DNA from: Methanolinea sp.
GTDB taxonomy: Archaea > Halobacteriota > Methanomicrobia > Methanomicrobiales > Methanospirillaceae
Direction: 5' to 3'
Length of the DNA: 64,000 nucleotides
Assembly (NCBI GenBank): GCA_018262855.1
Contig: JADFDO010000001.1
Span: 1 to 64,000 of the forward strand
The notes beneath the pieces were generated by a model. That model was not told the DNA's origin and did not search any database. It saw nothing but the letters and a program-made list of their open reading frames with translations. This document shows, in pieces, positions 55,234-60,791 of this stretch; the first letter of the stretch is position 1, and every line of letters begins with the position of its first letter. Position numbers and translations under genes: made by a program.

Positions 55234-55722
55234 TCAAATTGCAGTAAAAATAAGCCCTTGTTTTTCAACACAAACACACACACACGCTAGAACACGACCA
55301 TCATCTACTACTTCTCCGGAGTAGGGATCGAGATATAATATCGGCCCACAAGCATTAGAAACTGACACTACCGCCGTCCACACCCCATTAATTTCTATAC
55401 TGGCGGGTTTTACAGTCAATGGGCAACATGGATTCTCTAAACCATATGACTTTGCGATTTCAAGTGCCTCTTCATTACTGATTTTATCTTTGCTTATCCT
55501 TAAAGGAAAATTTGGGCGATTAAATTTGATTGAAGGAAACAGATTTGCGATATCAAGTGGTTCCTTATCACTGATTTTGTCTTTACTGAACCTTAAAGGA
55601 AAATCCGGGCGATTGGATTTGAATGAAGGAAACTGGAAGGCTGCCGATGCCGGGATCGCCAGAACCAGCATGAGGACAATGAAAGTGCTGAGTATTTTTA
55701 ATCCCGTATTCACAACTATCAA
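55234..55722 (-). CDS. Hypothetical secreted protein with internal duplication
   Basis: The 162-residue product has a signal peptide (about residues 8-28) and then two near-identical units: FPSFKSNRPDFPLRFSKDKISD... and FPSIKFNRPNFPLRISKDKISN..., matching a 93-base (31-codon) tandem duplication in the DNA (about 55451-55543 and 55544-55636). The rest has a PepSY-like end: WTAVVSVSNACGPILYLDPYSGEVVDDG. A short CA dinucleotide run encodes CVCVCV near the C-terminus. I do not recognise the family. Codon use is AT-rich relative to neighbours. Confidence 0.65.
   Translation of the reverse strand: MIVVNTGLKILSTFIVLMLVLAIPASAAFQFPSFKSNRPDFPLRFSKDKISDKEPLDIANLFPSIKFNRPNFPLRISKDKISNEEALEIAKSYGLENPCCPLTVKPASIEINGVWTAVVSVSNACGPILYLDPYSGEVVDDGRVLACVCVCVEKQGLIFTAI
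55451..55636 (-). repeat. 93-bp tandem duplication inside a secreted-protein gene
   Basis: Two units of 93 bases, beginning TTTGCGAT at 55451 and 55544 on the plus strand. Most bases match, and the reading frame is preserved. Confidence 0.75.
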
Positions 55723-57651: not shown

Positions 57652-57711
57652 TTCATCGCATCGATTCCTCTGCCCTGTCCACCGCGAAGATGATCTCCTC
57701 CCACACCTTTT
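57652..57711 (-). repeat. Duplicate of the polB2 3' end (downstream copy)
   Basis: This 60-base segment matches 57787-57846, the end of the PolB2-type gene, with about three differences. On the minus strand it would read [17 protein letters not shown]-like sequence followed by a stop. It is a leftover from a duplication of the gene tail. Confidence 0.75.
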
Positions 57712-57760: not shown

Positions 57761-57787
57761 TCCCTCTCTCTTGACTCCAGTCCCTTT

Positions 57788-59755
57788 TCATCGCATCGAC
57801 TCCTCTGCCCTGTCCACCGCGAAGATGATCTCCTCCCACGCCTTCTTGAGAATCTTTATGTAGTACCCGACATCGAAACGGGCAGCCTTCCAGTCGAGAT
57901 CGACTGCCCAGGAACGTGAATCGGTGACCACGTAACTCACCTCCATCCCCGGAGAGAGGGCAATTCCCTCTTCCCTGCAGGCCTCCACCGCCGAGGCCTC
58001 GGGGCACGCGTGACGGTAACGGAGAGTGCTGATCTGCCGGCTGACCGTCATCTCGCCTGGGCTGGCGCCGGGGAGTGCTTCCAGGGCCTGATGGTAATGG
58101 TCCCGAAGGGTATCACGGAGGGCCGCAATCTCCTGAAGGGTGCTGGCCCCCCTGAGGATATCCAGCAACTCCTGCTGCACATTCCGGACATAGGCAGGGG
58201 TGTCGCCGCGTCGGGCGGCGATCCCGCGAACCTTCAGGTTCCCGTCAGAGAGCCGCCCGTAGTAGCGGTTGTAAGCCCCCGTCCCGTCAGCCATCGGGAG
58301 GAAGACCAGCCAGTCGTACACGTCCACGACTGTATGGAGGCGGGTCTCCTTCTCCACCCTCTCCTTCAGGGCAGACACGGGACTCCCCTGTACCCAGAGG
58401 CAGTCCACGATGCCATGCAGGACGATAAAACCCATCCCCTCTGCGATGTCCCGCGTGCGGAGAAGGACTTCGCGTGCGCTTCCGGTGATCGCCTCGTGCA
58501 CCTCGATCCTCCCGAACTTGGCGTTCCGGTACCCGGTATACCCGAAGCACGTGACCAGCATCCACTTGAGGATCGAGTCCATGCCGGCATACCCGGGATC
58601 ATGGGCCTTCTTCCGCTTGGTCTCCATGCGAAGGGTGATCAGAGGGGCAAGAACCCCGGGGAGGAACCCCGCCTCACCTGGGCGATCCAGGGTCTCCGGG
58701 GAGAGGTTATCCCTTACAATGAGGGATGGGTACAGAGAAGTGAAATCGATCTCGTGCACCGCTGCATGGATCCCTGGCAGCGGCTGGAACATCATTCCCC
58801 CGCGGTCTGCAGCCTTCAGGGATGTAAACCTTCGGACCGCCTCGGGATCGCTCTTCCGCCAGGGAACCGCAATGCCCTGGCGCAATGCCTCGTAGACTTC
58901 GTATGACGAGATGAGGGTCCCTGAAGTGAACCTGGAGGTAAGGTTCGGGGGAAGGCCCGAAAGCCTGGCGCCAAGCAGGATCCCAGATAACCCGCTCTCC
59001 CTGAAATGGAAGCTCTGCCGGGTATCCACGAGCAGTCTGCCGTCAGGGATCAACGCCCCCACCCGGTACTCGGTCCTTCCATAGCTCCAGTATGACTTCG
59101 CCGAGAGGCGCCGGAACCTCCCGGTCCGGGAGAGACCAGTATCAAGCCCGTAGCCGTGGGCCGCTCCTACCAGCCGGGGCACCCACACATCAGCCTGGGA
59201 GAAGAGGATCACATCGGGATTGACTGATGCTACCAGCCCTCCAAGATCGGATAGGATGGTGTACTCGCTCCCGGCGAGAGTTTCCCGTCTCCCGTCAACC
59301 ACGAGCGAGAGAGAAGTGACAGGCCCTGGGGAGAACGGGTTGTCCTCAACTGCGATCTCCATTGCCCGGAGATCGTAGACGATGTCGGGTGAAAACCGCG
59401 ACTCCCCATCTCCGCCGCAGGGGACAATCCCCATTTCTGCCATCCAGCACTGGTCCGGTCTGAGATCGGCATTAAAGATCTGTGCCTCGTAGTGCGTCTG
59501 CTTCTCCACGAGGGCCGCCACTTCCCTGCCGGCATGCACCCGGTATCCCTCGACGGTCCCGTACACCGTGCGGATGGGCGACTCCTCCACCTGAAATAGG
59601 CTCTCCAGGCCCTCCAGGAGATCTCCGAAGGCATGGCGATCGGGGAGATGTACGAGGAATGACGGCGGAGCAGGGACGGTACGATGCGCCCCGTCCTTTC
59701 CCCTCTCCCATATCTCAACCTGGCCGTTGCGGGTGCAGGTGTCAAGGATCCACAT
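57788..59755 (-). CDS. PolB2-type B-family DNA polymerase with inactivated motifs
   Basis: The 655-residue protein aligns by eye with archaeal family B polymerases. Polymerase motif A is intact: [13 protein letters not shown]. Motif B is altered: [10 protein letters not shown] instead of KxxxNSxYG. Motif C is altered: HGIVDCLW instead of YGDTDS, so one of the two catalytic aspartates is lost. The exonuclease I site (expected DIE) reads DLR. This combination describes the PolB2 group, regarded as inactivated or unusual, with reports of lesion-bypass roles in some archaea. It is the last gene of a three-gene operon. Confidence 0.85.
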
Positions 59756-59984
59756 GCAGGGTATCCTCCCGGCCAGCTTTTGCCAACTCGATCACGACCG
59801 AGAAGAATGCGGCTTCGAGAGGATCGTCAAAGGCGTAGAAGCATTCGCTTGCGTGCCTCTTGGCCATCTCCACGACGCACTGTGCGCACTCGCGGTCCTC
59901 TCCGGGAAGGGTACGGGCGGCCCGCTCCCATCGTTCGGTGAGGATCCTGACCCCCATGCGGACGCTCATGAAACTCCGCCCCAT
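59742..59984 (-). CDS. Small conserved-looking protein in the PolB2 operon
   Basis: The 80-residue product reads as one helical domain with a CAQC pair and a C-terminal FFSVVIELAKAG helix. It overlaps the polymerase start by 14 bases and follows the RecA-like gene by one base (TGA-G-ATG), so it is almost certainly co-transcribed with both. I do not recognise the family. A small accessory subunit of the PolB2 module is a natural guess. Confidence 0.65.
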   Translation of the reverse strand: MGRSFMSVRMGVRILTERWERAARTLPGEDRECAQCVVEMAKRHASECFYAFDDPLEAAFFSVVIELAKAGREDTLHVDP

Positions 59985-59985
59985 C

Positions 59986-60516
59986 TCACATCCCCCCGAG
60001 GGTCTGCTGGCCCCGCGGGAGCCCTCCGGGGTAACGCTCCTTCCCCCTCACCCTGGCACGGGGTGCAGGCAGGCGTGCTGCGGGACTGGCAACGTAGAAG
60101 ACACGGTCTGCAAGCCGTGCCATATCGTTGAAGGATGGATCCGGGGACTCCGCATACAGCACCACGAGGGCACTCTGTCCCAGTTGCCGGAGGCTCTCCC
60201 CCACCTGCGAAGCCATATCTTCCCCGGCCCCCTCGTAGAGCGAGGGGTCGTGCTCTACGAAGACAATTGTATGGTAGGACTCCCGCAGAATCTGCAGGAA
60301 CTGGAACGCGGTGAACGCCCTCCTGACCTCGATGCTGACCGACCTGCGGTTGATCCCCGGGAGCACCCGTGAATAGTTCCCGCTCACAAAGAGGAAGAGG
60401 AACCGCCTGAGCACGGGGTTGTCGTTCAACCCCGCCAGCACCACCTCTTCAGGGGCCACAACAGCCGAGAAGGTTCCGCTCCGCAGTGTCACGGATGGGT
60501 GGAGGTCGAACTCCAT
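59986..60516 (-). CDS. RecA-like protein without a visible P-loop (PolB2 operon)
   Basis: From 60516 the product is 176 residues. The strand LQILRESYHTIVFVEHD and the following QLGQSALVVLYAE segment resemble the Walker B part of RecA/RadA-type ATPases, but no GxxxxGK(T/S) P-loop is present and the N-terminal strands are shortened. The protein is therefore probably a non-hydrolysing RecA-fold partner. It heads the operon containing the 80-residue gene and the inactivated polymerase. Identification of the RecA-fold is inference from pattern only. Confidence 0.55.
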   Translation of the reverse strand: MEFDLHPSVTLRSGTFSAVVAPEEVVLAGLNDNPVLRRFLFLFVSGNYSRVLPGINRRSVSIEVRRAFTAFQFLQILRESYHTIVFVEHDPSLYEGAGEDMASQVGESLRQLGQSALVVLYAESPDPSFNDMARLADRVFYVASPAARLPAPRARVRGKERYPGGLPRGQQTLGGM

Positions 60517-60791
60517 GCCTGCTACACTGGCATCCGGACTTGCATAATGGTGGGGAGCATGCGGAGCGAAAGTGGATGCTGGGGGTCCAGGGTCGAGGTT
60601 ATGTTGCCCTGCAGTGCAGAGAGGACCTGCCAATTTGAATCACGACCAGGCCCTGGATAATGGATAAATCATTCCTGAAACCGGTTTCCTGTGATGCAGT
60701 CATTATGACCGGGTGCAATGCAGATCCATCCCTCTTTCCAAGAAGGGGATCAAGGTGATGCATCAAACCCGGACTTGCAGAAAAAAAAGGG

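Follow-up and report, generated by a model that had tools for sequence, protein, structure and literature searches.

A predicted PolB2 mutasome operon in a Methanolinea-like methanogen shares a promoter box with radA and other repair genes

What does an archaeal B-family DNA polymerase with disrupted catalytic motifs do beside two small partner genes, and to which other genes of the cell is this group tied? We studied this for a three-gene locus in a 64,000-nucleotide stretch of DNA from Methanolinea sp. (the window), which an earlier note had read as a damage-tolerance module made of an inactivated PolB2 polymerase, a RecA-like protein lacking a P-loop and a small third protein. Our best reading, with a probability of roughly 0.83, is that this is the PolB2 mutasome operon of a Methanolinea-like methanogen, encoding a translesion polymerase complex that a damage regulon would control jointly with recombination genes. 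A damage-tolerance complex of this kind has been published before: the iRadA-PPB2-PolB2 operon is described as a predicted PolB2 mutasome (Makarova 2014, PMC4104785; Timinskas 2025, PMC11791011), and the latter includes AlphaFold models of a complex of PolB2, iRadA and three PPB2. Judged by the sequence criteria of the family, the window operon belongs to this already known kind of system. In our analysis, we established the gene set and its conserved order, the motifs retained and lost, the RecA fold of iRadA and a fixed promoter box common to radA and other recombination and repair genes. The box, missed by the earlier note, connects the operon with RadA and further repair genes independently of the polymerase.

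Among named organisms, the closest relatives of the genome are metagenome assemblies of Methanolinea. The three genes lie on the minus strand in the order iRadA-PPB2-PolB2 that is typical of the PolB2 mutasome. The first, iRadA (59986-60516), encodes 176 amino acids from the ATG at 60516 and has a RecA/Rad51 fold without a P-loop. It is followed by the gene for the small helical partner PPB2, or arCOG07300 (59742-59984, 80 amino acids; family described in PMC11791011), and by polB2 (57788-59755, 655 amino acids), a B-family polymerase of the PolB2 group. The open reading frames agree with the earlier note, including the 14-base overlap of PPB2 and polB2 and the one-base gap (59985) between iRadA and PPB2. 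Among 150 genomes of the order, PolB2 is present in 67; iRadA adjoins it in 63 of these (hypergeometric P = 3e-33 for co-presence) and a detectable PPB2 in 45, with the gene order kept in 29 of the 30 best loci. The three genes thus form a conserved unit, as had been proposed. PPB2 was not detected beside PolB2 in the remaining 22 of the 67 genomes, and it may be dispensable, lost or diverged beyond detection; in G037, G049, G025, G075, G041, G146 and others, iRadA adjoins PolB2 with no detectable PPB2 between or nearby. Genome G113, also of the family, has four iRadA-like and five PPB2-like matches plus a second, broken PolB2 with internal stops. The window also contains two repeats. About 58 bp of the polB2 3′ end are partially duplicated in direct orientation just downstream of the gene end (57652-57709, minus strand; the other copy at 57787-57844, an offset of 135 bp), and a 93-bp unit occurs in two tandem copies inside a predicted coding region at 55451-55633.

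The assignment of the polymerase to PolB2 is supported by a full-length match to NCBIfam NF004416 (881 bits) and by a motif alignment of 30 relatives, and the motif readings of the earlier note all proved accurate. Motif A, DFTSLYPS (residues 337-344), is intact with D337 present, and motif B has TC where Asn-Ser would be expected. Motif C reads HGIVDCLW, the HxxxD type, in which the first Asp is gone and the distal Asp451 is retained. The exonuclease catalytic motif is lost, with DLR at exo I. Across 30 homologues belonging to the order, the exo I stretch varies freely whereas motifs A, B and C hardly change, and every one of these proteins has the motif A Asp together with the His and the distal Asp of motif C. 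The D(K/R) motif, assigned with its preceding loop to iRadA/PPB2 contact in the mutasome family and D317-R318 in the window, likewise keeps its D and K/R in 30 of 30. The constancy of motifs A, B and C rules out a frame or sequencing accident and marks their changes as a fixed family signature, not recent decay.

Whether these changes abolish activity is a separate matter. PolB2 has been labelled ‘inactivated’ (Rogozin 2008, PMC2527604), and the earlier note used the same word. The motif losses are real, but the inactivity is doubtful, since the Dpo2 polymerase of Sulfolobus islandicus, whose motif C is also of the HxxxD type, is active, and since the motif residues of the window family are maintained rather than decaying. 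Dpo2 is an exonuclease-free extender polymerase that works past lesions, and its gene is damage-inducible (PMC8764526). By analogy with Dpo2, the label is probably wrong for the window PolB2 too. A catalytically dead scaffold subunit in a replication or repair complex, as suggested in Rogozin 2008, would be in keeping with the combined loss of the first motif C Asp, the motif B Asn-Ser and the exonuclease site (PMC2527604). We consider it improbable given the two aspartates and the histidine that all 30 homologues retain and the activity of the HxxxD enzyme in S. islandicus.

For iRadA, the alignment confirms that the P-loop (Walker A) is absent. An AlphaFold2 model built with 24 sequences (pLDDT 84.5, the last 30 residues having low confidence) matches RAD51-paralogue, DMC1, KaiC and RecA folds in the PDB by Foldseek, with E-values from 3.6e-5 to 3e-4, in agreement with the RecA-like partner of the earlier note. 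Comparison with the RadA profile by hhalign gave no signal (probability 0.2), so the description as RecA-like rests on fold and context. A sequence search of the PDB with iRadA returned chance matches only, and neither iRadA nor PPB2 had a match in Pfam or NCBIfam. PMC4104785 reports likewise that HHpred was needed to find the similarity of arCOG07763 to RadA. Some members of the mutasome family have a PCNA-binding motif in iRadA or PolB2. The iRadA C-terminus occupies the position of a PCNA-binding-like motif and reads QQTLGGM in the window, ending in Met without the final Phe, in comparison with QTTLEGF or QKTLEVF in relatives. PPB2 begins with an N-terminal arm, MGRSFMSVR, that contains Arg3 and Arg9 and is conserved in relatives; PMC11791011 describes this arm as MGRT with Arg3 and Arg9. 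The window genome also has a second PPB2-like gene away from PolB2, of 102 amino acids and without the MGRS arm (G000:C27:193770-194078; L053:5771-6079, minus strand).

Evidence independent of the polymerase comes from the promoter, which lies just outside the coordinates of the earlier note. On aligning the DNA upstream of iRadA, a single conserved block emerged with the pattern [C/T]ACTTTC[A/G]C-C[C/T]-C. In the window, this box is CACTTTCGCTCCGC (60561-60574, minus strand), the A of ACTTTC standing 57 nt before the iRadA start codon. A TATA-like TTAT (60544-60547, minus strand), recognized by position-specific conservation over 71 distinct promoters, is found 26 nt after the box start. The consensus over the 71 promoters is C-ACTTTC-R-C-c-C-C-n-C, then TTAT centred about 28 nt after the box start; its core columns are fixed by selection because the sites had already been chosen for matching A-N-TTTC-R-C. 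Counts free of this preselection place ACTTTCRC at -68 to -44 before iRadA in 57 of 60 named loci, including Methanothrix and Methanocrinis, and in 30 of 30 loci of the order (87 of 90 in two sets that partly overlap, some genomes being in both). From the background frequency in the remainder of these loci, 0.0009 would be expected per interval of this size. The box is also found before second iRadA genes (three of three) and, where the operon is split, upstream of PolB2 or PPB2-PolB2 loci that have no iRadA beside them. The arm-less solo PPB2 genes have it upstream in all nine cases (on another contig of the window genome and in eight other genomes of the family), and it stands in front of most other dispersed PPB2 genes.

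Beyond the mutasome genes, the box precedes radA in 23 of the 24 loci with a resolved start, including genomes without PolB2 (six further loci whose start the script did not resolve are left out of this count). For radA of the window genome, the distance to the start is 72 nt, which places the box within the 3′ end of the OB-fold gene that lies upstream. Searches with Pfam and NCBIfam in four genomes of the family identified RadA, RPA, Mre11, RuvC, an ORC1-type protein, an RNase H-like exonuclease and a DNA methylase behind the box. Exact sites were also found before RadA (two genomes), RPA, Hef and NrdJ in genomes that we take for haloarchaea from the character of their proteins. The accessory (third) Orc1/Cdc6 gene has the box upstream in each of 10 cases. 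The main Orc1 and Orc2 genes were rejected as carriers, with the box in 0 of 12 (Orc1 0 of 1, Orc2 0 of 11).

These gene lists bear on two other explanations. The complex could have a role in initiating replication or controlling origins, which was proposed from an arORC2 gene near PolB2 in many euryarchaea (PMC4104785), and the box on the accessory Orc1/Cdc6 gene would fit. We regard this role as very improbable: no Orc gene lies near the operon within the window, the box ties the operon to RadA, RPA, Mre11 and RuvC, and the main Orc1 and Orc2 genes are without it. The second explanation is that the box belongs to the general promoter architecture of these archaea, as an upstream element, and is not a damage switch. 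In its favour, the spacing to a TATA-like sequence is always the same, and some sites stand before transposon genes, before genes whose function is unknown or before no obvious gene. This too is unlikely, since there are only about five exact 15-mers per genome in the order, the named box genes belong mainly to recombination, repair and replication stress, the Orc1 and Orc2 promoters lack the box, and the matching Halobacterium motif came from UV-B-induced genes (PMC2556686). A damage-linked element, shared by the PolB2 operon and the recombination genes, is the reading that we prefer.

Genome-wide counts define how far the box can be followed. In 35 Methanomicrobiales genomes, the 15-mer occurs 179 times versus 25 for the reversed pattern, and it is enriched in three other families (17 versus 0 in f13, 21 versus 2 in f21 and 22 versus 8 in f23). 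No enrichment was found in f9 (45 versus 47) or f10 (20 versus 44), and the single f9 matches at NrdJ, RecJ and iRadA are therefore weak. In one f9 genome (G299), box-like sites precede TnpB-like transposon genes (L435, L436 and L437), which may be due to chance or to an element carrying its own promoter. The short core CACTTTCRC cannot be used alone, as it is not enriched in the window's own genome (36 versus 46 for the reversed pattern); the 13- and 15-mers of the box are enriched. Seven of the 12 exact 13-mers in that genome have a start codon 40-72 nt downstream, and not every site has a gene. Two related-looking families of small proteins without a Pfam or NCBIfam match occur repeatedly behind the box, in up to several copies per genome (L265:1567-1947 on own contig C20, L259:1001-1453 on own contig C2, L233, L223, L224 and others). 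For a box-associated family of 127 amino acids, the AF2 model is beta-rich (pLDDT 83) and a structure search gave no PDB match. Paralogous short Cys-rich (zinc-ribbon-like) open reading frames directly follow the box at G000:C5:46583 and G000:C26:176636. Taken across these genes, the shared box points to a coordinated response to DNA damage in methanogens. A literature search with the exact box sequence returned no match, and outside subscription journals we found no report linking the box to PolB2, PPB2, Mre11 or Orc in euryarchaea.

Damage-related elements with the same core are known from other archaea. Boubriak 2008 (PMC2556686) reported TTTCACTTTCA about 50 bases before the start of four UV-B-induced Halobacterium genes, including radA1, and noted similar ones at radA of other haloarchaea and of Methanospirillum. 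The box resembles this motif in its ACTTTC core and in lying about 50-60 nt before the start, upstream of TATA and at radA; in the window genome, the distances are 57 nt at iRadA, upstream of TATA, and 72 nt at radA. The full 11-mer TTTCACTTTCA is not present at the window site (CCACTTTCG), which reads ATCCACTTTCGC and agrees with it in the ACTTTC core only. In contrast to the Halobacterium motif, the window box has no 5′ TTT, has a conserved C-rich 3′ half (RC-CC-C) and extends to PolB2, PPB2, Mre11, RPA, RuvC and the accessory Orc. In Sulfolobus, the upsE promoter depends for its activity on ACTTTC upstream of the core promoter (Le 2017, PMC5817253), Orc1-2 binds ANTTTC (PMC9738581), and the element (DDRE) lies at -39 to -44 from the transcription start.

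This likeness raises the question of whether an Orc1/Cdc6-type protein regulates the box, as Orc1-2 does in Sulfolobus, with one damage element common to crenarchaea and euryarchaea. The ACTTTC core equals the hexamer of the Sulfolobus ups motif, on the same strand and upstream of the core promoter, and fits the ANTTTC bound by Orc1-2 (PMC5817253, PMC9738581); an Orc paralogue is among the genes carrying the element, with the box on the accessory Orc1/Cdc6 genes comparable to the element that orc1-2 of Sulfolobus carries itself. However, the six bases are all that is shared and are weak evidence of homology, and the spacing to TATA differs (about 26 nt here and, by our estimate, about ten less in Sulfolobus). 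The window's organism has just two Orc genes above the cut-off and no accessory Orc, so that this paralogue cannot regulate the box there and was rejected as its regulator in that organism. We thus treat an Orc-type regulator as a lead rather than a result, possible though less probable than its absence. A wider version would be an SOS-like regulon of Methanomicrobia and haloarchaea, in which the ACTTTC box stands over RadA, RPA, Mre11, RuvC/Hef, NrdJ, the PolB2 complex and the accessory Orc1/Cdc6, is the same ancient element that Orc1-2 reads in Sulfolobus, and is governed by an initiator paralogue instead of a LexA-like repressor; this we offer as a tentative conjecture.

Under the mutasome reading, DNA damage would raise transcription from the box promoters in this organism, and the polymerase complex and the RadA pathway would therefore be made together. 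PolB2, presumably active through D337 and D451 and without proofreading, would extend distorted primer ends past lesions. iRadA would dock on PolB2 through a loop that mimics the RadA-RadA contact, and a PPB2 trimer would bind with one N-terminal arm inserted in the cleft between PolB2 and iRadA. The arm-less PPB2 paralogue, behind the same box, may supply arm-less subunits to the trimer or compete for it. A fixed box common to the PolB2 operon and the main recombination genes provides a concrete list of candidate co-regulated genes, along with a short DNA probe with which to search for the regulator. It also connects methanogen PolB2 with damage on grounds other than the polymerase itself. 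Should an Orc1/Cdc6 protein turn out to be the regulator, a single damage switch would be common to crenarchaea and euryarchaea.

In comparison with the described PolB2 mutasome, the window operon has the same three genes in the same order, the HxxxD and D(K/R) motifs, a PPB2 arm with Arg3 and Arg9 and an iRadA without the P-loop. It differs in having MGRS rather than MGRT in PPB2, an iRadA PCNA-like motif that ends in Met, and a separate PPB2 paralogue without the arm at another place in the genome; the promoter box has no mention in the parts read of PMC11791011 and PMC4104785. The Dpo2 of S. islandicus and the window polymerase are both PolB2 proteins with an HxxxD motif C and a dead exonuclease, damage-inducible in Sulfolobus. 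The window protein differs in being euryarchaeal, and among known PolB2 the Dpo2 proteins of Sulfolobus are the smallest (PMC8764526). The Pol V mutasome of Escherichia coli (UmuD'2C-RecA) likewise combines a polymerase, a recombinase homologue and a small partner under damage control, a likeness drawn in PMC11791011, but it uses a Y-family polymerase, an active RecA and regulation by LexA.
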